Assembly: GCA_024403455.1 (NCBI GenBank)
Contig: JAKSRR010000019.1
Coordinates: 1-58,482, forward strand
Origin: Lachnospiraceae bacterium
GTDB lineage: Bacteria; Bacillota; Clostridia; Lachnospirales; Lachnospiraceae
Length of the DNA: 58,482 bases
Reading direction: 5' to 3'
Under the pieces are notes generated by a model. That model saw only the letters and a list, made by a program, of their open reading frames with translations, had not been told where the DNA came from and did not search any database. Below, one piece after another: positions 10,723-58,420 of this stretch; the first letter of the stretch is position 1; every line of letters begins with the position of its first letter. Both the position numbers and the translations under genes were made by a program.

Positions 10723-11234
10723 AATATCCCTCCCTTGCTAATTAGTACCGCTGTCAGTATGGGAATGGAAAAATGTATTCTATTTCTCGTTTTCCTTTGT
10801 GACAACTCTTTCAAATGTCTTAATTTTGTAGGTGTATTCTTATTAAATTGTATTTGTGAATTTCTTTTTCCTCCTTTCTCTACAAGTCTATAGATCTGAA
10901 TTACGACGACTTTCATAAGGCCTAGAATAGCTCCCACTACCATGGAAACTATCAGAATCTCGTAGGTTGCTTTCCTGCCTTCAAATACAGCAATCACAGC
11001 AAACAGTTTTACATCTCCTGCACCAAGTGCTTTCATAAGGTACAGCAAAAATAAGCTAATGCAAATAATCAGGGAATTTACGATGGCAGAGAATGCCACT
11101 TTGGGACCGCCAAGAACAGCGGTTCCTAATAGTCCCGAGAGGAGACTTGCTAGAATAAAAAAATTCGGAATCCTGTATGTACGTAAATCCAAGATTACTG
11201 CACCTACAAGAATTCCCATCAATAGTACCGTCAT
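10719..11234 (-). CDS. Prepilin peptidase TadV/CpaA, A24 family
   Basis: First gene of the tad operon. A 171-residue polytopic aspartic peptidase with both catalytic Asp regions: VILDLRTYRIPN near the N-terminus and the canonical GAGDVKLFAVI in the middle. It should cleave Flp and TadE-type leaders on the cytosolic face. The C-terminus has a basic, poorly conserved extension of about 45 residues ending in a short hydrophobic stretch. I choose the second in-frame ATG (MTVLLMG) because GGAGG lies 5 nt upstream; the first Met, four codons earlier, sits within that ribosome site. The stop overlaps the next start by 4 nt. Confidence 0.85.
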   Translation of the reverse strand: MTVLLMGILVGAVILDLRTYRIPNFFILASLLSGLLGTAVLGGPKVAFSAIVNSLIICISLFLLYLMKALGAGDVKLFAVIAVFEGRKATYEILIVSMVVGAILGLMKVVVIQIYRLVEKGGKRNSQIQFNKNTPTKLRHLKELSQRKTRNRIHFSIPILTAVLISKGGIF

Positions 11235-17164: not shown

Positions 17165-18610
17165 CTATGCTTCCAATCTCTTTTCGATAGCAGCAATAAT
17201 GGTCTTTAATGCTTTGATTCTTGCATAATGTTTATCATTGGATTCCAGAATCGTCCAAGGTGCAAAATCTGTATTGGTTTTTGCAATCATTTCATCAATG
17301 GCAACCTCGTACTGATCCCACTTCTCTCGATTTCTCCAGTCTTCCTCTGTAATCTTCCACTGCTTTTCCGGTGTGTTCTGTCTATCGTTGAATCTAGCAA
17401 GCTGGGTATCTTTATCAATGTGTACCCAGAACTTTACAACGATGGCACCATCTGCCGTTAAGTCATGTTCAAACTCATTCATCTCATGAAAAGCTCTCTG
17501 CCAATCATTCTCCGAGCAGAACCCTTCCAGTCTTTCTACCATGACTCTTCCATACCAAGTACGATCAAAGATAGCAATATGACCGCTCTTAGGAAGTCTT
17601 GTATAAAATCTGTAAAGGAAGTGTCTTGCTTTTTCTTCTGGACTGGGACTAGCAATGGGAAGCACTTCATACCCTCTAGCATCCAGAGCAGAAGCAACTC
17701 TCTTAATATTTCCTCCCTTTCCAGCAGCATCCCATCCTTCATATGCAACAATTAGAGGAATACGTTTTCTGTATAATTTATTATGCAGTTTTCCAAGCTT
17801 TTTCTGCAGAGATTTTAATTCTTCCTGATATGCGTCATCTGCAATCGTTTTATCCTGCAAGGATACCTTAGAAAGTTTTGTCGCAGGAAGCAGCGTATAT
17901 GGATTCTGCTGCAGTGGACGATCCTTACCATTCTTTTCATCTGCAGCAATTCTCGCATCAATGGCATTGGTGATAATGGAAATGATTTCCCCTTCTACAT
18001 CGGAAAGATGTGCACTTTCCAGCACATGCCAAGGACAGCACTTCGTATTTGTCTGCTCTCTAACTTTTCCATAGGCTTCTTCATAATATTCGAAGTTCTC
18101 ATTCTGTTCCAAATCTTCTTTAGTAACTCGCCATGCTGTATTTTTATGTTCTAAAAGTTCTTTCAGACGATTCTTCTGCGTTTTCTTATCTACATGCAGA
18201 TAAATCTTAACAATTAAATATCCATTATCTGTCATGCTACGTTCGAAATTATTCATACTTTCGATACGCTGTTTCATCTGCTTTTTGTTCTGGCTACGTT
18301 TTACAATTTCATCAATATAACCACCATCAAAGAAAGTAAACTGTCCCTGAGCAGGCATTTTCACTGCATATCGATAAAGAAACGGACGTCTCTCTTCCTC
18401 TTCTGTAATCTTGTCCATGTTATACACTTTAAAGAATCTGGGATCCATAAAACGAATGGTACTGGAAATAGCGCTGCCTTTTCCGGCCGCTCCAAACCCT
18501 TCCAACATAACAATGACTGGTAGCTTCTTTTCTTTCACTACAACTTGCTTATCTGCTAATTTACTGCGAAGAGCATCTCTCTCTTCCTTGGTATATTTTT
18601 TCTCTTTCAT
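17165..18610 (-). CDS. pap: Two-domain PPK2, polyphosphate:AMP phosphotransferase
   Basis: 481-residue protein with two tandem PPK2 domains (about 5-225 and 255-480), the architecture of class II polyphosphate:AMP phosphotransferase, which makes ADP from AMP and polyphosphate. Both domains keep a Walker A (EGFGAAGKGSA near 37-47 and EGWDAAGKGGN in the second) and a lid/Walker B region (FFDGGYIDEIVKR; IFDRTWYGRVMVERLEG). The second domain is the more canonical (FDRTWYGR), as is usual in this enzyme, where the N-terminal half is often less active. Cytosolic. No polyphosphate kinase 1 gene is adjacent. Its stop is 66 nt before the fliB-like gene. Confidence 0.9.
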   Translation of the reverse strand: MKEKKYTKEERDALRSKLADKQVVVKEKKLPVIVMLEGFGAAGKGSAISSTIRFMDPRFFKVYNMDKITEEEERRPFLYRYAVKMPAQGQFTFFDGGYIDEIVKRSQNKKQMKQRIESMNNFERSMTDNGYLIVKIYLHVDKKTQKNRLKELLEHKNTAWRVTKEDLEQNENFEYYEEAYGKVREQTNTKCCPWHVLESAHLSDVEGEIISIITNAIDARIAADEKNGKDRPLQQNPYTLLPATKLSKVSLQDKTIADDAYQEELKSLQKKLGKLHNKLYRKRIPLIVAYEGWDAAGKGGNIKRVASALDARGYEVLPIASPSPEEKARHFLYRFYTRLPKSGHIAIFDRTWYGRVMVERLEGFCSENDWQRAFHEMNEFEHDLTADGAIVVKFWVHIDKDTQLARFNDRQNTPEKQWKITEEDWRNREKWDQYEVAIDEMIAKTNTDFAPWTILESNDKHYARIKALKTIIAAIEKRLEA

Positions 18611-35678: not shown

Positions 35679-35694
35679 TGTTTCACGTGAAACA
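35679..35694. promoter_or_regulatory. parS site 1 (perfect)
   Basis: TGTTTCACGTGAAACA, the exact 16-bp palindromic parS consensus bound by ParB. It lies about 200 bp upstream of parA. A degenerate half site (TGTTTCACG) lies 26 bp to its left at 35653-35661. Confidence 0.97.
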
Positions 35695-35737
35695 TTTTTT
35701 ACTAAATATAGGGTGTACTTGTTAACATAATAAATTA

Positions 35738-35753
35738 TGTTTCACGTGAAACA
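35738..35753. promoter_or_regulatory. parS site 2 (perfect)
   Basis: A second exact TGTTTCACGTGAAACA, centred 59 bp from the first. Together they mark a ParB loading region about 7.5 kb from the dnaA start. Confidence 0.97.
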
Positions 35754-40505: not shown

Positions 40506-41918
40506 TTATACTTCTTTGCTATCTTTCTTTGCAGAATCAGTATTGGACTCTGCAACTTCCTTAAAATCATCTACCTTCTCTTCTTTTACAGATTCTTCCT
40601 TACGGAAAGCATAAGAGCCTTTTTCATTATACTGTTTAACCATCATTGCTTTTGAAGCAAGAGAACCAGGCTTTGCAGTAGAACTCTTCTTATAATAATC
40701 TGTAGATTCAGAAATCTTTGCTTTATTTGCTAAAGAATTGGTATTCTTTCTCTGAACATTTTTGGTATTCATAGTAGCAGCCTGAGTAATCTGCATAGGA
40801 GAAAGACCCTTCTTAGCACGCTTTGCATTTTCCTTTTCAATATTCTTCTTAACCATTTCGTCAATATCAATCTTATCAAGACGCTTATTAACAATAATCT
40901 GGATAATAGAACGAACAACTGCACCGGCTACCCAGTAAAGTCCCATACCAGCAGGAAGAGTAACACAGAAAATGATAGACATGATAGGCATAATACTGTT
41001 CATAACCTTCATGGACTGACCCATGGAGTTCATACCATCACTATCACTCTTAGGCTGCTGTGGCATTAATTTTGTATTAATCCACTGGGTAAGACCTGCT
41101 AATAAAGGAATCAAAATAGCAAGAATAATAACCCATACGTGTCTCTCATCAGAAGGCATACCAAATTGCTCAGCAATAATATTCTTAGGAGAACTACTGA
41201 TGTTTAATCCAAGGAAATTATTAAACTTGTCTAATTTTTCAGAAGCATCTGCAACTGTACTAGCAAGATCAGGATACTGCGCAGATACATTTAAAAGCTC
41301 AGCTGTTGAACTTCTGTTTAATACATCAATATAGGTATTAGTAGTATAGTTAACAATCTGAGGATTGGTGCTGGTAACATCAAAAAGTGCATTACCAAAC
41401 TGTTTTGTGTAATACATTGCACCAGATAAATTAGCAGGATCCTTGATAAAATCTACACTGTTTGCGTGTCCTAAAAGACCATTTGCAATAGGAATAAATA
41501 CTTCCTTAATTTTTGCAACATAGGCAGGCATAGAATAGATTACACGATATAGTGCAAATAAAATCGGCATCTGAATTAATAACTGAATACAACTACCAGA
41601 AGGATTTACACCATACTTTTTATATACCATCTTATTCTCCATCTGCATACGCATAATGGAATCCTGATCTGTTTTGCCCTGATACTTCTCTCTAATAAAC
41701 TGAAGTTCAGGAGCCATCTTGGCATTTAATTTTGAAAACTTCTGCTGCTTTGCTGTAAGAGGAATCATAAGTCCATATACAACAATGGTAAATAAAATAA
41801 TTGCAAGACCGATATTGGGAATACCAATAAAATTCAGAAATGCAAAAATCTTATCCATGATAAAACCAAGGATAGCGGCAAAAGGTTTTAAAAAACCGCC
41901 TACTTTCGTTAAAAGCAT
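40506..41918 (-). CDS. yidC: Membrane protein insertase YidC
   Basis: 470-residue insertase, longer than the usual ~260 of monoderm YidC. The N-terminal helix block contains PNIGLAIILFTIVVYGLMIPLTAKQQKFSKLNAKMAPELQFIREKY, the charged hairpin with MQMENKMVYKKYGVNP, and the substrate-groove helices around LIQMPILFALYRVIY. An insert of about 100 residues precedes the last helix pair (VILAILIPLLAGLTQWI, PIMSIIFCVTLPAGMGLYWVAGAVVRSI). The C-terminal ~100 residues are a basic cytosolic tail that can bind ribosomes. No lipoprotein signal is visible. It lies between yidD and jag. Confidence 0.96.
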   Translation of the reverse strand: MLLTKVGGFLKPFAAILGFIMDKIFAFLNFIGIPNIGLAIILFTIVVYGLMIPLTAKQQKFSKLNAKMAPELQFIREKYQGKTDQDSIMRMQMENKMVYKKYGVNPSGSCIQLLIQMPILFALYRVIYSMPAYVAKIKEVFIPIANGLLGHANSVDFIKDPANLSGAMYYTKQFGNALFDVTSTNPQIVNYTTNTYIDVLNRSSTAELLNVSAQYPDLASTVADASEKLDKFNNFLGLNISSSPKNIIAEQFGMPSDERHVWVIILAILIPLLAGLTQWINTKLMPQQPKSDSDGMNSMGQSMKVMNSIMPIMSIIFCVTLPAGMGLYWVAGAVVRSIIQIIVNKRLDKIDIDEMVKKNIEKENAKRAKKGLSPMQITQAATMNTKNVQRKNTNSLANKAKISESTDYYKKSSTAKPGSLASKAMMVKQYNEKGSYAFRKEESVKEEKVDDFKEVAESNTDSAKKDSKEV

Positions 41919-41935
41919 AAAACCTCTTTTCTGAC

Positions 41936-42184
41936 TTATGATTTCACATCAAAATAGCGGCGTCTGATTTTCTTTTCAGGCACCGGATCATATCCACCAT
42001 GAGAAAAAGGATTGCATCTTAAAATACGATAAAATGCAAGAAACGATCCTTTGAATGCGCCATGTGTTTTCACAGCATCTAATCCATACTGGGAACAGCA
42101 AGGATAGTAAGGACATTTCGTTCTCTTCATAGGAGATAAATATTTTTGATAGAAATGTATAAGTCCGATAATAATCTTCTTCAT
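41936..42184 (-). CDS. yidD: Membrane insertion efficiency factor YidD
   Basis: 82-residue YidD with the family core IHFYQKYLSPMKRTKCPYYPCCSQYGLDAVKTHGAFKGSFLAFYRILRCNPFSHGGYDPVP, including the conserved Cys and the CNPF motif. It helps YidC-dependent insertion. The start is the ATG of MKKIIIG; a TTG six codons earlier also fits. Neither has a strong ribosome site, but the gene is 30 nt from rnpA and probably coupled. Confidence 0.95.
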   Translation of the reverse strand: MKKIIIGLIHFYQKYLSPMKRTKCPYYPCCSQYGLDAVKTHGAFKGSFLAFYRILRCNPFSHGGYDPVPEKKIRRRYFDVKS

Positions 42185-42214
42185 GTTCTTTTGCAGATAC
42201 AAATAATAAGGAAA

Positions 42215-42550
42215 TTATTTTATCTGCTTGTGTAATTTCATTAAATGTAAAAGGGCTTGTTCAATATCGCCAAACCTCGCGCGGTCGGCTCCCCTTCTTA
42301 CCACAACCACGATATCTAGACCACTACTAAATAATTCCTCATGAATGCGGTAGCTTTCTTTTACAAGTCTTTTTAAATGATGTCTTACGATAGAATTTCC
42401 AACTTTTTTACTAACAGAGATTCCAAGTCTGTTTTCGTCCGACTGGTTTTTCAGTACATACATAATAAGAAGCTTGTTCGCATAGGATTTGCCAGACTGA
42501 TATACATTTTGGAAACTACTATTCTTTTGTAAGGAAACTGTAAAATGCAA
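42215..42550 (-). CDS. rnpA: Ribonuclease P protein component
   Basis: 111-residue basic protein subunit of RNase P. It has the RNR-like motif in NRLGISVSKKVGNSIVRHHLKRLVKESYR and a C-terminal DIVVVVRRGADRARF. It assists the catalytic RNA in tRNA 5' maturation. Translation should start at TTG (42550), which follows AGGTGAG by 5 nt. It follows rpmH past a short hairpin. Confidence 0.94.
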   Translation of the reverse strand: MHFTVSLQKNSSFQNVYQSGKSYANKLLIMYVLKNQSDENRLGISVSKKVGNSIVRHHLKRLVKESYRIHEELFSSGLDIVVVVRRGADRARFGDIEQALLHLMKLHKQIK

Positions 42551-42580
42551 GATAACTCACCTAACTAACTGTAAACAATA

Positions 42581-42602
42581 AAAGGCCCTAAGCAGGGCCC
42601 TT
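42581..42602 (-). terminator. Attenuator-like hairpin between rpmH and rnpA
   Basis: On the minus strand AAGGGCCC and GGGCCTTT form an 8-bp stem (one G-U) with a 6-nt loop, then TTTTATTG. It starts 6 nt past the rpmH stop. A partial terminator here would let rpmH be made in excess over rnpA, a layout seen in other Firmicutes. Confidence 0.65.
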
Positions 42603-42607
42603 ATCTA

Positions 42608-42742
42608 TTAAGCGGATAATACTTTTCTTCCCTTTGCTCTTCTAGCCTGAAGAACTTTTCTTCCACCTGCTGTACTCATTCTGGAACGGAAACCGTGAAC
42701 CTTAGAACGCTGACGCTTTTTAGGCTGATATGTCATTTTCAT
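42608..42742 (-). CDS. rpmH: Ribosomal protein bL34
   Basis: 44-residue, highly basic large-subunit protein: [22 protein letters not shown] followed by the conserved [22 protein letters not shown] tail. Too short for the ORF threshold but unmistakable. AGGT lies 9 nt before the ATG and a strong promoter about 60 nt upstream. It leads the rpmH-rnpA-yidD-yidC-jag operon next to oriC. Confidence 0.97.
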
Positions 42743-42808
42743 ACTTCTGGTACCTCACTTTCTCATAAATTTACCAGCAAACTTCTCATGCCGGAAAAAC
42801 CGAAATTC

Positions 42809-42838
42809 ATTATAATAGAAAAAACTTTATTTCGTCAA
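42809..42838 (-). promoter_or_regulatory. rpmH promoter
   Basis: TTGACG (42833-42838) and TATAAT (42809-42814) on the minus strand are 18 nt apart. This is one of the best promoter matches in the window and lies about 65 nt upstream of the rpmH ATG. Confidence 0.75.
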
Positions 42839-43198
42839 GTTAAAAAATCTATATTTTAAGCACTTTTTAGCAATTTGCTTAATCCAAATTATCAAATAAC
42901 TTTTCTTAAAAAATTTATATTTTTTTAAGATTTCAAAATGTAGTGGGAGTCAAAAAATGAAAGCACCATATCTTATGATTTACATAATATTTTATAATAA
43001 GAAATGGTTGCCATAATACTATCCACAAAATGTGGAAAAAATGTTGATAAATTTGGATAAAGTCTCAATTTTATTGATAAATAAGGGAAAAATAGTCTAT
43101 TTTCAATGTTAACAACTTATCCAAATCTTCAAAAATGAAAGAATTTGTAAAAAGTTATGCAACCTGTTATACACATTGTCTGACAATTTTTTCCACAT

Positions 43199-43227
43199 TT
43201 GAAATTTTTTTTTCTTTATAGTAGGAT
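43199..43227 (+). promoter_or_regulatory. Putative dnaA promoter
   Basis: TTGAAA (43199-43204) and TAGGAT (43222-43227) are 17 nt apart, about 70 nt before the dnaA start. DnaA boxes at 43189-43197 and 43269-43277 flank it, which suggests autoregulation. Confidence 0.4.
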
Positions 43228-43297
43228 ATAAAAACGCGCAAAATGCCTTAAATAAAAGACTTTTAGCGTGTGGATAACTTTTTGGGGAGAAAGAACC

Positions 43298-44677
43298 TTG
43301 ATTAACTTAGAAAAAGAATTCGATTCCATTAAGAATACCGTAAAAAAGGAATTTGAATTAACGGACATTGCTTATAATATTTGGATTGCACCATTAAAGT
43401 ATGTAAGTTTTGAAAATAATGTCGTTACGATTATGGTGCCGGATGAGCATTCTCAAATTTTAGATCATATTTCCAAAAAGTATAAAGTATATTTTCAATC
43501 TGTTATTTCCGAATTATTGGATAATATTGTAAATATTAATTTTGTTGTACAGCAGGAAGAAACGAAAGAAGAAAATCAATCTATGCCTGTACAAAGTCAA
43601 AGAGATGATGATTATTTTAAAGCTGCAAATTTAAATAAGAAATATTCCTTTGAAAATTTCGTCGTTGGATCTAATAATGACATGGCCCAGCGTGCATGTT
43701 TAGCAGTTGCAGACTGTGTATGTAATGGAAATAGTAATGATGAAGGAATTAATCCTCTCTTTATCTATGGTGGATCCGGTCTTGGAAAAACCCATTTAAT
43801 GAATTCCATTGGACATTATATTGTTAAAAATAAACCCAATAAAAAGGTTTTATATGTATCTAGTGAAGAATTTACAAATGAAGTTATTGAATCCATCAGA
43901 GGTGGTAATTCTACTGTTTCCCATATGACAAAGCTAAGGGAAAAATATAGAAATATTGATGTTCTATTAATTGATGATATCCAGTTTATTATTGGAAAAA
44001 ATTCTACCCAGGAGGAATTTTTCCACACCTTTAATACACTCTATGAAGCAGGAAAAACGATTGTTATTTCCTCTGATAAACATCCAAAGGAAATGGTAAC
44101 ATTAGATGAACGATTCAGAAGTCGTTTCCAAATGGGATTAATCACTGATATTCAGCCTCCTGTTTATGAAACAAGAATGGCTATTCTACAGAAATATGTG
44201 GAAAACTTAGGAAGACCTATTAATAATGACATTTTGATGTATATTGCTGAAAATATTAAATCCAATGTCAGAGAACTGGAAGGTGCTGTTAACAAAGTAA
44301 TTGCTATAGGAAGATTAAATCCTTCTACAGAAATGACCCTAGAAACAGCAAAAGACGCTTTAAAAGACACTATATTCCCTGATTCCAATACCATTATTAC
44401 ACCGGGAAATATATTAGACGCAGTAGCAGAATATTTTCATATTAAGACAGAAGACATTATATCTAAAAAAAGAAGCCAGGATTTGGTTCTTCCAAGACAT
44501 ATATTCATGTATCTTTGCAGAGAAATGACAGATACCACATTAAAGGGAATAGCCATTATTTTGGAAAGAGATCATTCCACAGTAAAGCACGGTGTGGATA
44601 AAATTGGGGATGAAATGAGGACAAACCAGGAACTGAAAGATACGGTAGAAATCATCCGTAAAAAAATATCCAAATAG
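43298..44677 (+). CDS. dnaA: Chromosomal replication initiator DnaA
   Basis: 459-residue AAA+ initiator. Domain I (about 1-85, INLEKEFDSIKNTVKKEFEL), a short domain II, the AAA+ core (FIYGGSGLGKTHLMNSIGHY Walker A; VLLIDDIQFIIGK Walker B; sensor regions; the box VII Arg in RFRSRFQMGL), and domain IV with the DnaA-box reader DHSTVKHGVDKI. The start is TTG (43298) because GGGGAG lies just upstream; the longer frame begins inside a DnaA box. It is followed by a terminator before dnaN. Confidence 0.98.
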   Translation: MINLEKEFDSIKNTVKKEFELTDIAYNIWIAPLKYVSFENNVVTIMVPDEHSQILDHISKKYKVYFQSVISELLDNIVNINFVVQQEETKEENQSMPVQSQRDDDYFKAANLNKKYSFENFVVGSNNDMAQRACLAVADCVCNGNSNDEGINPLFIYGGSGLGKTHLMNSIGHYIVKNKPNKKVLYVSSEEFTNEVIESIRGGNSTVSHMTKLREKYRNIDVLLIDDIQFIIGKNSTQEEFFHTFNTLYEAGKTIVISSDKHPKEMVTLDERFRSRFQMGLITDIQPPVYETRMAILQKYVENLGRPINNDILMYIAENIKSNVRELEGAVNKVIAIGRLNPSTEMTLETAKDALKDTIFPDSNTIITPGNILDAVAEYFHIKTEDIISKKRSQDLVLPRHIFMYLCREMTDTTLKGIAIILERDHSTVKHGVDKIGDEMRTNQELKDTVEIIRKKISK

Positions 44678-52777: not shown

Positions 52778-52850
52778 AAGTATTTTAATTATGTGATTTG
52801 TGAAAGGAATTAATTCCGTTTTTCAAGAGGTGGATAAAATACCTTTTTTA

Positions 52851-52994
52851 GGAATATTCTATTATTCCAGGGGCAGGATATAGTGCCTCTCTGAGGAATA
52901 TTCTATCATTCCAGGGGCAGGATATAATGCTTTTTTGAAGGAATACTCTATTATTTCAGGGGCAGGATATAGTGCCTCTCTGAGGGAATATTCT
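52851..52994. repeat. Tandem array of half-units leading into repeat copy A
   Basis: The decamer GGAATATTCT (one copy GGAATACTCT) starts at 52851, 52895, 52940 and 52985, a 44-45 bp period. Between successive decamers is CAGGGGCAGGATATA(G/A)TGC plus a pyrimidine run, the left arm of the hairpin family. Only the last unit continues into a full loop and right arm, so three left halves stand without partners. Unit sequences differ by several substitutions. Confidence 0.7.
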
Positions 52995-53028
52995 TTTCTG
53001 ACCGAAGAGAGGCACTTATATCCGCCCC
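52959..53028. repeat. Hairpin repeat family, copy A
   Basis: Left arm 52959-52980 (GGGGCAGGATATAGTGCCTCTC, 22 nt) pairs with right arm 53007-53028, with one bulge on each side. The 26-nt loop 52981-53006 matches the family loop. In the divergent gap between the methyltransferase and the nuclease-like gene. Confidence 0.85.
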
Positions 53029-53105
53029 AATTACTAAAATCCGCCCCTCTATAAAACATTTAATTTATTTTAAAATAACACGATTAAAATGAAAAGTTTT
53101 CTTTT

Positions 53106-53134
53106 TTGTATATGATTTTAAATGGTTGTATAAT
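53106..53134 (+). promoter_or_regulatory. Putative promoter of the nuclease-like gene
   Basis: TTGTAT (53106-53111), 17 nt, TATAAT (53129-53134). Transcription would begin near 53141, downstream of the first in-frame TTG at 53126, which argues that the true start lies further in. Confidence 0.5.
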
Positions 53135-53953
53135 ATTTTTACCATTTCGGAGGCAAAAATCATAAAAACATCCTTTACCATAGAAAAAATAAAACCCTTT
53201 TCAGAAGAGGAAAAAGACCGGTTTCAAAGAGCAATAGATACGGTTTCTTTTTATGCAAAAGGATTGCAGGGAATTGGTTCCTACCAAGAAAAGTCAGTGC
53301 ATGCAGTACTAAAGCATTATTTTGCACCAGATAGGAGCTGTCAGGAAATTCCTGTAGGACAATACGTGGCAGATGCGGTAAAAGATGGAGAAATTTATGA
53401 GGTTCAAACCAAAGATTTTTATCGAATGAAAGGAAAACTGGATTGTTTTCTTAAAAATTACGATATAACAATCGTATATCCAGTGATTATTGAGAAAACA
53501 GTTAGATGGGTAGATCCAGCGACGGGAGAAGTTTCGGAGGCTCTCAAATCACCCAGAAAAGGTAGTATTTTCAGTATTTTTCAGGAATTATATGGAATTA
53601 AAGAATATCTGAAAAAGAAAAAACTGCATTTTATGATGATATTTATGAATGCAGAAGAGTATAAACTTCTGGATGGATATGGAAAGGATAAAAAAAGAAG
53701 GGCTACCAAGGCGGATAGGGTGCCTACGGAATTTTTGGGAGAATATATACTAGATGGAAAAAAGGATTATAAAAATCTTCTTCCAGAATCACTTCCAAAA
53801 CAGTTCACAACCAAAGAATTAAAAAGTCTTACAAAGTGTACAACAGAGCAGGCCCAGATCTTTGTGAATATCTTATCCTTTATAGGATGTATCAAAGAAG
53901 TAGGACGACAGGGAAGATGTAAGTTGTATGAGATACCAGGGAGGAAATCCTAA
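53126..53953 (+). CDS. Uncharacterised nuclease-like protein (DUF8091-type)
   Basis: Up to 275 residues. It fits an uncharacterised family (I believe DUF8091) with YAKGLQGIGSYQEKSVHAVLKHY, a restriction-endonuclease-like core (VADAVKDGEIYEVQTKDFYRMKGKLDCFL: D83, E92, Q94, K96), SPRKGSIFSIFQELYGI and a C-terminal winged helix (PKQFTTKELKSL...EVGRQGRCKLYEI). Role unknown. The start is uncertain: the only TTG (53126) overlaps a TATAAT, whereas GGAGG (53149-53153) points to ATC (53159) or ATA (53162). Coordinates here use the TTG. It lies directly upstream of mnmE. Confidence 0.7.
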   Translation: MYNIFTISEAKIIKTSFTIEKIKPFSEEEKDRFQRAIDTVSFYAKGLQGIGSYQEKSVHAVLKHYFAPDRSCQEIPVGQYVADAVKDGEIYEVQTKDFYRMKGKLDCFLKNYDITIVYPVIIEKTVRWVDPATGEVSEALKSPRKGSIFSIFQELYGIKEYLKKKKLHFMMIFMNAEEYKLLDGYGKDKKRRATKADRVPTEFLGEYILDGKKDYKNLLPESLPKQFTTKELKSLTKCTTEQAQIFVNILSFIGCIKEVGRQGRCKLYEIPGRKS

Positions 53954-54006
53954 ATAAACGCATGAGTGTATTGTGATTTCTTCGAAAAATAAAGGGGAAT
54001 AAATAG

Positions 54007-55416
54007 ATGTCAGAAATTATAGCAGCCATTGCTACGGGAATGACCCAGGCAGGAATAGGCATTATTAGAATATCAGGAGAAGGATCCATCGGCATAGCCG
54101 ATCAAGTTTTTGTATCTCCTAGTGGAAAAAAATTAAGAGACGTAAAAACCCACACCATACATTATGGTCATATTGTGTGGCAGGAAGAAGTATTCGATGA
54201 AGTTTTAGTTTCCGTCATGCATGGTCCTCATACATTTACGGGAGAGGAAACCGTGGAGATTAATTGTCATGGTGGTCTTTATATATTAAAGAAAATCTTG
54301 GACTTACTTTGCTCCATTGGTGCAAGATTAGCTGAACCTGGAGAGTTTAGTAAACGAGCATTCTTAAATGGTAAGAAAGATCTTTCAGAAAGCGAAGCCA
54401 TTATGGATGTCATTGGTGCCGGCTCAGATGCGGCTCTTCGTAATTCCATGAAAATGTTACAAGGTGGATTATATGAGGGAATCAAAAATCTCAGAGAAGA
54501 AATTCTGTTTGAGATTGCATTTATTGAGTCAGCATTAGATGACCCAGAACATATTTCATTAGATGGATATCAGGAAAAATTGTCTGAAAAAGTGGCACGT
54601 CTGCAAAGTAAAATTAAGATGCTGATAGACAGTTATAAGAGAGGATCTTTGCAAAGAGAAGGAATTGGAACAGTATTATTGGGTCGACCCAATGCAGGAA
54701 AATCTTCTATACTTAATGTTCTTGCCAGAAAGGACAGAGCTATTGTTACGGATATTCCAGGAACAACCAGAGATACTTTGGAAGAAACGATTCTTCTTGG
54801 AAATCTATCCCTTAGATTGTATGATACGGCAGGACTGCGAGAGACAGAAGATACTGTAGAGAAAATTGGTGTAGACAAAGCACTGGAGACGGCTAAAGAA
54901 GCCGACTTAATCTTATATGTTATCGATGGCGGAGAAGCATTAACAACAGACTTTGAAGAGATGCTGCCTACATTATCTGAAAAGAACTGCATCGTATTAG
55001 TAAATAAGTTTGACTTGGAATCAAAAGTAACTGCAGAAGAAATAAGGGAAAAATTGCCTACAGCAAAGGTACTGTCTGTCTGTGCATCTAAAGAAAAATG
55101 GGAAGCATTAAATGCATCATTGCAAGAATTCTCATGGGTGAAAGAACTAGAAGATTTAATTACAGATCTCTTCTTTAAAGAAGGGGCTTCCATGAATGAC
55201 GAAATCCTTATTACGAATCTTCGCCACAAAAGAGAATTAGAAGAAGCAAAACAGGCATTATCTCAGGTACAAAATAGTATAGAAATGGATATGCCGGAAG
55301 ACTTTCTGTCCATTGATTTAATGGCAGCCTATTCCCATCTCGGATTCATTATTGGAGAAGAAGTAGATGATGATTTGGTAGATGAAATCTTTAGTAAATT
55401 CTGCATGGGAAAATAG
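54007..55416 (+). CDS. mnmE: tRNA modification GTPase MnmE
   Basis: 469-residue GTPase that modifies the tRNA wobble uridine (cmnm5U) with MnmG. N-terminal folate-binding domain (AIATGMTQAGIGIIRISGEG, CHGGLYILKKILDLL, GEFSKRAFLNGKKDLSESEAIMD), inserted G domain (LGRPNAGKSSILN, DIPGTTRDT, DTAGLRET, NKFD) and the family C-terminus, IDLMAAYSHLGFIIGEEVDDDLVDEIFSKFCMGK. It usually sits next to mnmG and jag on the other arm; here it is alone on the right arm. AAGGGG lies before the ATG. Confidence 0.97.
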   Translation: MSEIIAAIATGMTQAGIGIIRISGEGSIGIADQVFVSPSGKKLRDVKTHTIHYGHIVWQEEVFDEVLVSVMHGPHTFTGEETVEINCHGGLYILKKILDLLCSIGARLAEPGEFSKRAFLNGKKDLSESEAIMDVIGAGSDAALRNSMKMLQGGLYEGIKNLREEILFEIAFIESALDDPEHISLDGYQEKLSEKVARLQSKIKMLIDSYKRGSLQREGIGTVLLGRPNAGKSSILNVLARKDRAIVTDIPGTTRDTLEETILLGNLSLRLYDTAGLRETEDTVEKIGVDKALETAKEADLILYVIDGGEALTTDFEEMLPTLSEKNCIVLVNKFDLESKVTAEEIREKLPTAKVLSVCASKEKWEALNASLQEFSWVKELEDLITDLFFKEGASMNDEILITNLRHKRELEEAKQALSQVQNSIEMDMPEDFLSIDLMAAYSHLGFIIGEEVDDDLVDEIFSKFCMGK

Positions 55417-55455
55417 CTTGCATATGCTTTTATAAAAGATGAAATATCTATACCA

Positions 55456-55526
55456 AGAGAAGAATACCATACCTCTCTGAATGAATATTCTTTTCTGACT
55501 GAAGAGAGGTACGGTATTCTCTCTTC
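55456..55526. repeat. Hairpin repeat family, copy B
   Basis: Left arm 55456-55477, 26-nt loop 55478-55503, right arm from 55504 (about 17 paired positions near the loop). The single mismatch in the 17-bp core is A-C on the plus strand and G-U on the minus strand. It lies 40 nt after mnmE. Confidence 0.85.
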
Positions 55527-55547
55527 TAAATAATATTCTAAAACTTA

Positions 55548-55612
55548 GGGAAGAAATCATACCTCTCTGAGGGAATATTCTTTTCTGACCGAAGAGAGGT
55601 ATGATTCTTCCC
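55548..55612. repeat. Hairpin repeat family, copy C
   Basis: Left arm 55548-55567 (GGGAAGAAATCATACCTCTC), loop 55568-55593 identical to copy A's, right arm 55594-55612. One bulged A. It lies 21 nt after copy B in the same orientation, before the esterase gene. Confidence 0.87.
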
Positions 55613-55665
55613 GTATTAATAGATATGAAAGAGCAACAATATTTCTATAAAGAAAGGAACTACGT

Positions 55666-56763
55666 ATGCTTCATGAAGTAAAAATTAGCGAAAATGAAAA
55701 TATAAGAATTGGCGGAAGAACCATTTCTCAGAAAGATCCTGTGATTTTACAATGGGGCGGAAGTTTTATTGAACTTACAGTAAAAGCCAGTGAGCTTTGG
55801 ATAGAGGTAGCTGGTCCACATACCAACAATGAGAACTGGATGGCTGTAGAAATTAATGGAGCTATCTTATCCAGACAAATTGTGCCAAAGGAAAAGAGTC
55901 TTGTTCCTGTTTTCATACATCGCAATCCGGAAAAAGAAACAAGAGTAAGAATTTTCAAAGAGGTACAGGCCATGAGTGGTGATGCACACCACGCGCTTGA
56001 AATTTATGGTGTAAAGCTAGATGGAGAAATTGTACCTTCTAAGGAATATTCATATAAGCTGGAATTTATTGGGGATTCTATCACCAGTAGTGAAGGTACT
56101 ATGGGAGCGAAGGAGGAGGAAGACTGGATTAGTATGTATTTTTCTCATACTCATGCCTACTCCTATATGACTGGAAAGGCACTCAATGCCGAGGTGAGAT
56201 GTATTAGTCAGAGTGGATGGGGTGTTTTTGCCTCCTGGGATAGCCATTTTGATTGTAATCTTCCTGCGCATTATGAGGAGATTTGTTCTTTATGTAATGG
56301 AGAAGAATTTGCAGAATTCCAAAAGCCTTATGATTTTTCTTCCTGGCAACCGGATGCGGTTATTATTAATTTAGGAACGAATGATGCCTCCGCTTTTCAT
56401 CAGGAAGGATATTTTAATGAAGCAACAGGAAAGCTTGAGGAACTTCGTATGGAAGGGGATAAATTTAATGCGGAAGATGCAGATAAGGTATCCTCTTACA
56501 TTGCAGAGTTTTTAAAGAAGGTTAGAAAGAATAATCCAGGGGCTTATATTCTTTGGGCATATGGAATGCTAAGTACGGAATTTGAAGAAGTAATTTTAGC
56601 TGGTATTCAGAAGTATAAGGAAACCAGTCAGGATGATAGGATTAAATATTTGGTTCTTCCGGAAGTAAATGATGATACGGTTGGTGCTAGATGGCATCCA
56701 GGGGAGAAGTGTCATAGAGCGGCGGCAGAGGTTCTTGTGAAGGAACTGAAAGAAATTTTGTAA
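55666..56763 (+). CDS. CE2/SGNH-type carbohydrate esterase
   Basis: 365-residue esterase with an N-terminal jelly-roll-like domain (about 1-125) and a C-terminal SGNH domain: block I FIGDSITSSEG (catalytic Ser), block III NLGTNDASAF, and HPGEKCHRAAAEVL with the His. This order matches family CE2 acetyl-xylan/mannan esterases. There is no signal peptide, so it should act in the cytosol on imported acetylated oligosaccharides. AAGGA precedes the ATG. The GH1-ManA fusion in this window could use related sugars (inference). Confidence 0.85.
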   Translation: MLHEVKISENENIRIGGRTISQKDPVILQWGGSFIELTVKASELWIEVAGPHTNNENWMAVEINGAILSRQIVPKEKSLVPVFIHRNPEKETRVRIFKEVQAMSGDAHHALEIYGVKLDGEIVPSKEYSYKLEFIGDSITSSEGTMGAKEEEDWISMYFSHTHAYSYMTGKALNAEVRCISQSGWGVFASWDSHFDCNLPAHYEEICSLCNGEEFAEFQKPYDFSSWQPDAVIINLGTNDASAFHQEGYFNEATGKLEELRMEGDKFNAEDADKVSSYIAEFLKKVRKNNPGAYILWAYGMLSTEFEEVILAGIQKYKETSQDDRIKYLVLPEVNDDTVGARWHPGEKCHRAAAEVLVKELKEIL

Positions 56764-56774
56764 TAAATTATGAT

Positions 56775-56798
56775 GGGGCAGATATATTGCCCCTTTTT
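56775..56798 (+). terminator. Terminator of the CE2-like esterase gene
   Basis: GGGGCA and TGCCCC form a 6-bp GC-rich stem with a 7-nt loop, then TTTTT. It is 11 nt past the stop. Its GGGGCAGATATA... sequence resembles the arms of the hairpin repeat family, and TAATTAGAAAAGA after it resembles the family loop, so it may be a decayed copy. Confidence 0.85.
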
Positions 56799-56832
56799 AA
56801 TTAGAAAAGATTTATATAATTTAGATAGAGTA

Positions 56833-56895
56833 GCAGATATAATGCCCCTCTTCAGTCAGAAAAGAATATTCCTTCAGAGGGGCATTATATCTTGC
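56833..56895. repeat. Hairpin repeat family, copy D (inverted)
   Basis: Left arm 56833-56850 (GCAGATATAATGCCCCTC), 26-nt loop 56851-56876, right arm 56877-56895, pairing without mismatch except one bulged base. Orientation is opposite to A-C. The right arm is followed by TTTTTT on the plus strand, so this copy could also terminate. Confidence 0.87.
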
Positions 56896-56963
56896 TTTTT
56901 TCAAGGTGATATTATTTTTGTTTATTGTAGGTTGAATGGGAATTTTGAATGTAGACTTGGGGC

Positions 56964-57021
56964 GGATATAAATCCTCTCTTCGTTCAGAAAAGAATATTC
57001 CCTCAGAGGGGATTTATATCC
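56964..57021. repeat. Hairpin repeat family, copy E (inverted)
   Basis: Left arm 56964-56979 (GGATATAAATCCTCTC), loop 56980-57005, right arm 57006-57021. One of 16 pairs is G-U on the plus strand and C-A on the minus. Same orientation as D. It lies 22 nt beyond the stop of the minus-strand membrane gene. Confidence 0.85.
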
Positions 57022-57043
57022 TATGCGCTAGAAAGGAATATAT

Positions 57044-58420
57044 TTATAGAGGGGAATTTGTTTGCTCAACAGGGGAAGAGGATTTTTTAAAGAGATGTAA
57101 TAGCATGGCAAAAAGCATCATATAGAAGAGTGCCATATTATAAATCATATATCTGGTCTGGCAGAAAATAAGTGCAGCTGTGACCCCAATGTTTACAAGA
57201 ATAGAAAGTAAAACAAGAAGAGAAGAGAGGCCAATGATGCGGGTCTCTTTTTTAATCATCATTTTAACGGTGAGTGCCAGATATAAAATGTATGCAAAGA
57301 TAGAGTAAAGATCCAGGATAGGATGTCTCTTTGCAACGGTATTGATTAATCCTTCCATAAAGGAAGCAAAATAGATACGAATATATTTAGAAAGATTATC
57401 TTTTAGTAGAGAAGAAACAATGACGGAACTCATGCGGTCTGCTTCCTCTTCTGCTTTCATACCTTCTTCAAAACCTCTTTCGATGGCATTTTCAACAAAG
57501 GTTTTTTCGGTGACATCACAGGTAATCTGATCAAAGCTTATGGTATAGTGATAAGCAAGTCCAGACCAACCATCTTCAGCATAGGAGATGTTTAATTCTT
57601 TTGCATCTAAGGTATCAAAGGTTTCTAAAAATAAATCTTGAATTGCCTCTTCTTCAATGAGAGAAACATCTTCTCTGTCGCAGATATAAAGTGAAGTGGT
57701 AAGAACCAGATTCATATTACGGGTGCTGCCGGAAAATTCTCCACGAAGGGCATAATTATAAAGTTTGGTTCCTCCCATGGCAAGAAGCAATCCTCCCGCC
57801 ATAATAAGCAGTGACAGGCCCATTTTCTTAAAGTATTCTTTTTGCTTCATCCAGCCAAAGAACAGAGCGCCAAATAGGATGATAAAACAGATGAGCATCT
57901 GCTTTCTGGTATCCATAAGAAGTGCAGCATAAAGCGTAGCAAACAGTACATATTTTAAGGACTGGGTCAGCATGGCTTCCATGGTGGCATGGATAAAGAG
58001 TAAAAAGAGACTTAATGTAATACCCTCCGTAATAATGGAGTTTGGATAAGCAGCACTACGTCCAGCTAAGAACTGATTCATAATAGCAACCATGAAATGA
58101 ATGCCTAAGAAAACATAGGAACTCCATATTGGCAGAAAGAGTTTTTTCTGTGCATAGGAACAGATTTTAAACACAGCAAATGCCATGAGAAGATTTTGAA
58201 TAATAACGACAACCCGCATATAAATATCTGTCCCAAAGATGCTGCGGAAAATCCATAGAAAAAGAGAATAAACAGGTTCTCTGGTAGAGGACATATTTAC
58301 ATAGCTGACAGTATCATTATCTGTAAAAATAGGAAAAATAAGTGCAAAAAGGAGATAAAAAAGAAAGCTAAGTCCTAAAAGACAAAGGGTGTGTTTTTTT
58401 TCTTTGGACAAAGATTTCAT
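57044..58420 (-). CDS. Polytopic membrane protein, GT-C-like
   Basis: 458-residue membrane protein with about ten helices. The N-terminal loop after helix 1 has TDNDTVSYVNMSSTREPVYSLFLW, an acidic patch in the position where GT-C glycosyltransferases and EpsG-like proteins bind metal. A soluble segment at about 235-335 lies between membrane blocks. No family is assigned with confidence; polyprenyl-phosphate-sugar transferase or a polysaccharide-related permease are options. Nothing is seen in the 62 nt between its start and the window edge, so its promoter may lie there or beyond. Confidence 0.6.
   Translation of the reverse strand: MKSLSKEKKHTLCLLGLSFLFYLLFALIFPIFTDNDTVSYVNMSSTREPVYSLFLWIFRSIFGTDIYMRVVVIIQNLLMAFAVFKICSYAQKKLFLPIWSSYVFLGIHFMVAIMNQFLAGRSAAYPNSIITEGITLSLFLLFIHATMEAMLTQSLKYVLFATLYAALLMDTRKQMLICFIILFGALFFGWMKQKEYFKKMGLSLLIMAGGLLLAMGGTKLYNYALRGEFSGSTRNMNLVLTTSLYICDREDVSLIEEEAIQDLFLETFDTLDAKELNISYAEDGWSGLAYHYTISFDQITCDVTEKTFVENAIERGFEEGMKAEEEADRMSSVIVSSLLKDNLSKYIRIYFASFMEGLINTVAKRHPILDLYSIFAYILYLALTVKMMIKKETRIIGLSSLLVLLSILVNIGVTAALIFCQTRYMIYNMALFYMMLFAMLLHLFKKSSSPVEQTNSPL

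Follow-up and report, generated by a model that had tools for sequence, protein, structure and literature searches.

Small palindromic repeats are usually recognized by a conserved stem or foot, and the Correia/NEMIS, ERIC and YPAL families are defined by common sequence that includes the stem. Integron attC sites are recognized as folded single strands that have a largely free stem, a variable end and conserved parts at the foot, and RNA hairpins of the iron-responsive element type carry a constant end loop and a bulge on stems of free sequence. The BOX elements of pneumococcus are modular intergenic repeats with a foldable structure and a variable number of ~45-nt tandem units. Here we describe a family of intergenic hairpins in which a structured tip is conserved and most stem letters are not, found in a 58,482-nucleotide contig of a Lachnospiraceae bacterium (GenBank GCA_024403455.1, JAKSRR010000019.1), the whole of which we call the window, and elsewhere in the same genome. 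The family differs from iron-responsive elements in being known from DNA sequence alone and in its mixed placement and gene orientation, and from attC sites, as these are generally described, in having a conserved tip and no gene cassettes in sight. It shares with BOX elements a foldable part accompanied by tandem units, but BOX units lie inside the fold, whereas here they lie outside one foot and, unlike those of BOX, each comprise a single arm and a portion of the tip.

The family also resembles REP/BIME repeats (TnpAREP/RAYT), which PMC8266576 and PMC3733652 describe as small intergenic palindromes that occur as several families per genome and are often lineage-restricted. TnpAREP appears there as a transposase family that binds folded hairpins via loop or stem irregularities (PMC8266576); as in the hairpins described here, a folded single strand would be read through its irregularities, and half of the stem may be non-specific (PMC8266576, PMC3733652). 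GTAG-family REPs have stems of 6–13 bp, loops of 2–3 nt in many families and a GTAG/CGTC foot (PMC8266576, PMC3733652), whereas the present hairpins have 16–23 stem pairs, a structured tip of 22–24 nt, no common foot and unconserved stem letters. Correia/NEMIS, ERIC and YPAL repeats are likewise small and foldable, many are intergenic, several fold on both strands, and families of this type are possibly transcribed with their neighbors (PMC2229807, PMC2267715); the hairpin family, in contrast, has no shared sequence beyond its tip and the few stem pairs next to it.

We favor, tentatively and at a little short of an even chance, the interpretation that these hairpins are a lineage-restricted intergenic palindromic repeat that is recognized in trans at its tip and whose stems are interchangeable. 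The inherited and recognized part is probably the apical module and not the stem, with something reading the tip. All five window hairpins of the original prediction (A, 52959..53028; B, 55456..55526; C, 55548..55612; D, 56833..56895; E, 56964..57021) were confirmed, with minimum-free-energy z-scores of −4.1 to −7.7 over both strands. The predicted 26-nt loop with 22 of 26 identical positions was borne out and, measured between the closing T-A pairs, amounts to 24 nt, 20 of them identical in the five window copies. Stems that differ and yet stay paired, also part of the prediction, were evident over 12 copies in mean stem scores of 36.3 within copies and 16.8 across copies. Over the same number of copies, identity was 35% in the outer arm (positions 7–20) and 92% in the loop, with 16–23 Watson-Crick pairs per stem; the window hairpins measure 58–71 nt.

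Scanning the host genome (2,234,603 bases in 35 contigs, 82% complete) added 12 further hairpins to the five of the window, giving 17 in total plus one half-copy. These 12, like the helix inside the tip, the tandem array at 52832–52957 and the degenerate half-copy at 56778–56810, go beyond the original prediction. Copies are named by contig and kilobase (C31_0, C31_7, C31_66, C34_45, C34_76, C34_82), C12a being C12:139860 and C12b C12:139727; contigs C10 and C31 start at or near a hairpin. The 16-nt core of the tip had 12 exact matches in the genome, none at one mismatch and one for a reversed control pattern, and all 12 exact matches sit within long hairpins, so a chance origin of the core matches is excluded. 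Outside the window, exact-core hairpins are at C4:45914, C10:132, C12:139860, C31:257, C31:7492, C31:66587 and C34:45724. A covariance model (R1) built from the 12 exact-core copies added C12:139727 and two C34 hairpins that bear a different tip, and a pattern for that tip matched at C32:22762, C34:76457, C34:82029, C1:165822 (one mismatch) and the half-copy C34:76399. When a combined model (R2, 17 rows) was run on the genome with 150 of 1200 first-look candidates scored, E values up to 0.2 returned exactly the 17 hairpins and the half-copy. A looser tip pattern matched at 24 places (controls, 2 and 2), comprising 15 hairpins, the half-copy and eight places without such a hairpin, and missed C12b and C1. 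The tips form three sub-families: I, with 11 hairpins, A to E among them, and tip TCRGTCAGAAAAGAATATTCYYTC with small variants; II, with two hairpins that face each other between open reading frames (ORFs) named crt and hbd by eye; and III, with four hairpins and tip TCAGTCAAAAACATATTCCTTC.

The stems show strong covariation. In the 12-row alignment, 87.5% of cells were paired, 14 of 18 pairs had changed on both sides, and covariation was 0.647 compared to 0.202 when shuffled; the corresponding values for the 17-row alignment were 84.6% paired and 0.645 compared to 0.226 (0/500 shuffles), with slid structures reaching at most 0.253. Covariation, which the original prediction had named as its test, thus exceeded both shuffled and slid controls on paralogous copies, although the shuffle significance is overstated because all rows come from one genome. 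By eye, sub-family I similarity drops abruptly beyond the first seven stem pairs, and stem groups resemble one another (GATATAA is common to A, D, E and C31_7). We describe the lower stem as a handle in which pairing is required and most letters are free.

The 24-nt "loop" is itself structured. RNAalifold predicted, unprompted and on both alignments, a covarying 2-bp inner helix, and on the first (12-row) alignment it also placed a GAA/TTC helix inside the tip. We refer to the strand reading TCAGAAAAGAATATTC as the C strand and to the strand reading GAGGGAATATTCTTTTCTGACCGA as the R strand. The inner helix is 94% paired over 17 copies, with G-C/A-U and G-C/C-G exchanges; on the R strand its first pair (23-42) is standard in 17/17 (G-C in 9, A-U in 7, G-U in 1) and its second in 15/17 (G-C in 13, C-G in 2). 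Columns invariant in all 17 copies (alignment A3) are G21, GAATAT at 25–30, T35, TGA at 38–40, and A44. In 15 of 17 copies the R strand has GA/GA at a 2x2 internal loop, where tandem G-A pairs could form. Modeled on the R strand, the tip module would be made up of this GA/GA internal loop, the covarying 2-bp helix, the GAA/TTC helix, TGA as a bulge and an end loop of 7 nt.

Such a module would suit a regulatory RNA hairpin, either a cis element or a small RNA, that is transcribed from the strand reading GAGGGAATATTC and has a protein-bound structured tip, a serious rival to which we give real but minor weight. Like an iron-responsive element, it would combine a constant tip, here with tandem G-A mismatches and a bulged UGA, with a free stem. 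Covariation, the inner helix included, is consistent with this rival, as are pair 23-42, which is standard on the R strand throughout the 17 copies, pair 25-37, which in the four sub-family III copies is G-U on the R strand and A-C on the other strand, and the invariant G21 and A44, which are compatible with a G-A mismatch. Covariation is not specific to RNA, however, because template switching in DNA can also create and repair stems (PMC8794818), and covariation alone is therefore no proof of RNA; more generally, covariation among the repeats of one genome should not by itself be taken to identify an RNA.

Strand preference did not decide the matter. The original prediction had argued from the mismatches in B and E, which both become G-U on one strand, that an RNA is read from that strand. 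B and E each do have one G-T as claimed, but this argument fails over 12 copies, in which the ratio of G-T to A-C on that strand (the C strand) is 7:4, and the reading of an RNA from that strand is unsupported given no clear stem strand bias and mixed gene orientation. The two cases of wobble in the tip (C31_7 and sub-family III) favor the R strand, opposite to the predicted one. The scarcity of one-sided changes and of G-U was tried as a sign of DNA-level repair and dropped, since a tRNA control shows the same scarcity: the control (12 tRNAs, 204 cells) had 2 one-sided, 84 two-sided, 3 unpaired and 7 G-U cells, compared to 5, 57, 27 and 10, respectively, for the hairpins (216 cells). Although this control is rough (ungapped register, with 3 of 12 rows from one tRNA-Lys gene and several from other organisms), its scarcity means that constraint on RNA and constraint on DNA cannot be told apart from the pattern of substitutions.

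All 17 hairpins are located in gaps between likely genes. Taken at full length from a TTG start, the ORF next to C31_0 and the one next to C34_82 each include the hairpin; both have an ATG further in. Spurious small ORFs traverse several hairpins. Co-directional genes flank 11 hairpins. In eight of these (B, C, C12b, C31_7, C34_45, C34_76, C32 and C1) the R strand is sense, as a regulatory RNA would predict, but p is 0.23, and in the other three (C4, C12a and C31_66) it is antisense to both neighbors. The remaining hairpins are at contig ends (C10, C31_0), in divergent gaps (A, C34_82) or in convergent gaps (D, E), and this occupation of all three gap types, together with the absence of a clear stem strand bias, counts against a regulatory RNA. 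A Pfam scan of 20 neighbor proteins, with crt and hbd outside the scan, left four without a family and suggested no common function for the rest, so that no shared family implies one regulon, and none of the 17 hairpins matched an Rfam family at gathering score; sub-threshold matches in the window region were mostly of microRNA type.

Within the window, hairpin A separates two divergent ORFs, one methyltransferase-like (−) and the other lacking a Pfam match (+); its C strand is on − and its tip at 52982–53005. B (tip 55479–55502) and C (tip 55569–55592) share a gap between an MnmE-like ORF (+, named by eye) and a GDSL/CE2-like ORF (+), with the C strand on − in both. D (tip 56852–56875) and E (tip 56981–57004) share a convergent gap and have the C strand on +, with TTTTTT past the stem of D on +. 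The spurious ORFs through hairpins, at window positions 52862–53059 (−), 55318–55560 (−) and 56770–57090 (+) and at 20–286 (−) of locus L022, encode a recurring peptide like LFSQKRIFLQRG, which automatic annotation may call small proteins.

Orientation was also compared with replication. The R strand is the G-rich strand in 13 of 17 hairpins (p = 0.049; exceptions D, E, C4 and C12a) and, counted by gaps with the mixed C12 gap left out, in 11 of 13 (p = 0.022), but the gene-orientation and skew tests are all post hoc, and skew near C31:1-18000 is weak (0.065). GC skew in the window changes sign, from about −0.2 to +0.2, near 42–44 kb, 9–15 kb from the five copies, and the region at 41000–44000 is a probable chromosomal replication origin with the hairpin cluster near it. 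Placing five of 17 hairpins within about 4 kb did not occur in any of 200,000 uniform placements, which were not confined to gaps. These observations could fit a site on chromosomal DNA that a nucleoid or replication protein binds as a cruciform or as a hairpin linked to replication: the five window copies are close to the probable origin, and 13 of the 17 copies share one orientation relative to skew. We regard this as quite unlikely. Four copies are opposite, including D and E inside the cluster, distance to the origin is known for the window contig only, and absence from the same-genus genomes searched would be odd for a function in chromosome maintenance. To the right of the skew switch (41000–44000) are gyrA-like and mnmE-like ORFs, so named by eye. 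Two inverted TGTTTCACGTGAAACA boxes 41 nt apart, which we take to be parS-like, occupy window positions 35679–35753, and a similar pair of boxes is found close to mnmE at a number of same-genus loci (L027, L035, L038 and L044).

That the hairpins are bidirectional intrinsic terminators sharing a loop by coincidence is barely credible. They do occupy gaps, and D has its T-run on the + strand, but 13 of the 17 lack any 8-nt stretch with at least 6 T past the stem on either strand, and the T-rich exceptions are D, C12b (scattered T), and C31_66 and C34_45 (both on the array side). A clear T-run after a GC-rich stem was present only in D and, on the array side, in C31_66, which agrees with the earlier view that the hairpins are not just terminators. 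Terminators, moreover, are not known to maintain a 16-nt loop sequence.

Five hairpins (C10, C31_7, C31_66, C34_45 and A) terminate tandem arrays with a period of 39–45 nt and, by Tandem Repeats Finder (TRF), 2.4 to 4.9 units; C34_76 and D have one outlying half-unit each. Each unit comprises a single arm and some of the tip, and the opposite arm occurs only in the terminal unit. In the window, the array before hairpin A (52832..52957; period 44–45; TRF 52832–52994 and 52850–52994) repeats the arm that lies on the left of A on the + strand, together with a portion of the tip, and a partial extra arm copy, ACTAAAATCCGCCCC, lies directly outside the hairpin at 53033..53047. A degenerate half-copy on the + strand before D (56778..56810) is 85% identical to D's left arm plus half the tip; it contains a GGGGCA..TGCCCC stem followed by TTTTT and is terminator-like by eye. 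The 10-nt half-core of sub-family I was intact in 11/11 hairpins compared to 4/16 arrayed half-copies, and thus the tip is mostly retained where a stem presents it. Fisher's test gave 0.00018, a value that overstates the difference because the choice of half-copies was visual and units that share an array are related to each other and may just be older. The sub-family III half-copy C34:76399, outside this 4/16 count, has an intact half-core. Edit distances to the hairpin's own unit in the C34_45 array were 11, 8, 9 and 2 from far to near; such a gradient of divergence was clear only there, with C31_7 and C31_66 differing by one edit and C10 reversed.

These arrays bear on two further explanations. 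According to the first, the tip is a functionless recent cassette whose stems were made later at each locus by template switching from the flanks, so that covariation would be mutational. Perfect stems can arise and persist through template switching (PMC8794818), sub-family I similarity falls off by eye past the first seven stem pairs, and in C34_45 the array unit closest to the hairpin also resembles the hairpin's own unit most (edit distance 2). We strongly doubt this explanation, however, as three diverged tip sub-families with one architecture are unexpected from recent neutral spread, stem groups are alike (A, D, E and C31_7), the inner helix covaries, and the C34_45 gradient was not seen in other arrays. 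The second, which we think rather unlikely, is that only the tip letters are heritable: replication would write a long matching stem from local DNA by template switching wherever a tip lands and would preserve the match, and the hairpin would shed half-element arrays whose stemless tips decay. If true, the element passes on its shape rather than its sequence. The 17 natural stems offer a test bed for weighing the shares of selection and of template switching in arm complementarity.

For the favored interpretation, a tip-recognized palindromic repeat, we envision that the folded strand is bound at its tip by a protein of this lineage; a constant structured tip on a drifting stem points to such a tip-reading protein. 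Binding as DNA would be the likelier form, because there is no stem strand preference and orientation tracks replication slightly better than genes. Copies may spread directly or through replication or repair at the hairpin, in a REP- or MITE-like life, and arm complementarity would be kept by selection for the hairpin, aided by template switching that rewrites one arm; this last role is taken from PMC8794818 and is only a proposal for this family. The half-element arrays may have arisen by tandem duplication of segments bounded within the tip on one side and beyond the stem on the other. We lean to DNA with a mobile past because the family is narrow in range, clustered, split into sub-families and accompanied by arrays, and because its stems show no strand preference.

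Several results weigh against this interpretation. No cognate enzyme was found in the 82% complete genome, in which enzyme classes beyond Y1 were not searched for. The copies lack a flanking duplication (mean longest shared word 4.35, compared to 4.57 between different copies) and, beyond AT-rich words, have no common 4- to 6-mer at either foot of the 17 copies; by eye, GTAG is near one foot in D and C12a only. No empty site was seen, and same-genus relatives are too remote to read any. Mobile palindromic repeats normally keep the stem conserved. The skew orientation bias is post hoc and borderline, with D and E contrary to it; the one-strand tip wobble (two events, in C31_7 and sub-family III) hints at RNA; and the absence of core mismatches in 12 copies also fits an immobile functional site under selection.

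Known classes of mobile palindromes do not accommodate the family. A REP with a GTAG/CGTC tag was rejected on account of the missing terminal tag, the length of 58–71 nt in the window where such REPs span 20–40 bp, the outer arm at 35% identity, the 24-nt tip, and a Y1 gene flanked by other repeats. A classical MITE was rejected as well, since the terminal arms are not conserved (16.8 across copies and 36.3 within) and there is no target-site duplication. Of the suggestions in the original prediction, a loop bound by protein and a REP/MITE-type element whose enzyme is absent remain live, except that the classical MITE is contradicted. The single Y1 transposase gene (locus L126, C12:20563; genome 82% complete) is flanked by GGGGACGGTCC repeats and not by the hairpin family; a second such gene may lie in the missing sequence. 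The GGGGACGGTCC repeats form a REP-type family of their own, with the Y1 gene as its likely enzyme. Seven more GGGGACGGTCC copies, some in a 38-nt inverted pair, are in locus L019 (noted at 17633–17712).

The family appears confined to its own genome in searches that were partial at wide range, public scans possibly omitting the records nearest to this genome. Among 60 genomes (its own, 34 of the genus and 25 others) and 392 genomes of the order, its own included, the exact core had a single match in each of six others, none in a continuous hairpin. R1 and R2 over 35 genus genomes, again including its own, found members in its own genome only: 19 weak R1 matches in relatives were unrelated when folded, and four weak R2 matches were ordinary terminator-like or other hairpins. 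One of the weak R1 matches (locus L085 in genome G015) covers 19 nt of the right tip half and inner stem, without a hairpin, in a 276-codon frame. R2 over 397 family genomes, own included, returned its own genome plus one partial match without a long stem, at a setting that recovered 13 of its 17 own hairpins and could thus miss distant members. Two exact-pattern scans of public collections gave no matches, and an extended core pattern matched 20 genome contigs and two viral contigs, none with a continuous stem, the best having 17 of 26 scattered pairs with wobble included. The exact sub-family III core had no match in viral contigs, and a phage or plasmid origin was rejected as giving only chance-level matches (by blastn of the D–E region alone and viral scans with exact patterns). 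Titles and abstract openings of open-license papers described no such hairpin family in this lineage. The age of the family can hardly be judged from its absence in the genus, because the relatives are remote: MnmE had matches in 20 of 34 same-genus genomes, with no more than 45–54% identity over full length (one partial match, 58%).

Other repeats surfaced along the way. In G023, a genome of the same genus, two hairpins flank mnmE (locus L033, 1323–1380 and 3435–3528) and share the loop ATCAATTCTTAGNRAAGNGAATTG; they occur as only two copies in G023 and in none of 16 other genomes searched, and are perhaps an analogue. The tip-like loop of G023, beginning ATCAATTCTTAG, was set aside as a separate hairpin pair, with no copy in the genome described here. 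TCATTCTGAGCGAAGCGAAGAATC-type repeats, which appeared as weak model matches, are present in several same-genus genomes (loci L072, L073, L083 and L090). A 36-nt tandem array of TAACGAGCAAAAAGCGAAGCGTTTGCGAGTATATCC with about 4 units (locus L022, 6102–6252) is 1.2 kb from C31_7 and unrelated to it in sequence, and Clostridiales-1 RNAs (RF01699; 72.5 and 65.5 bits) lie on hairpin-bearing contigs at 10957–11069 of locus L020 and 2179–2304 of locus L023.

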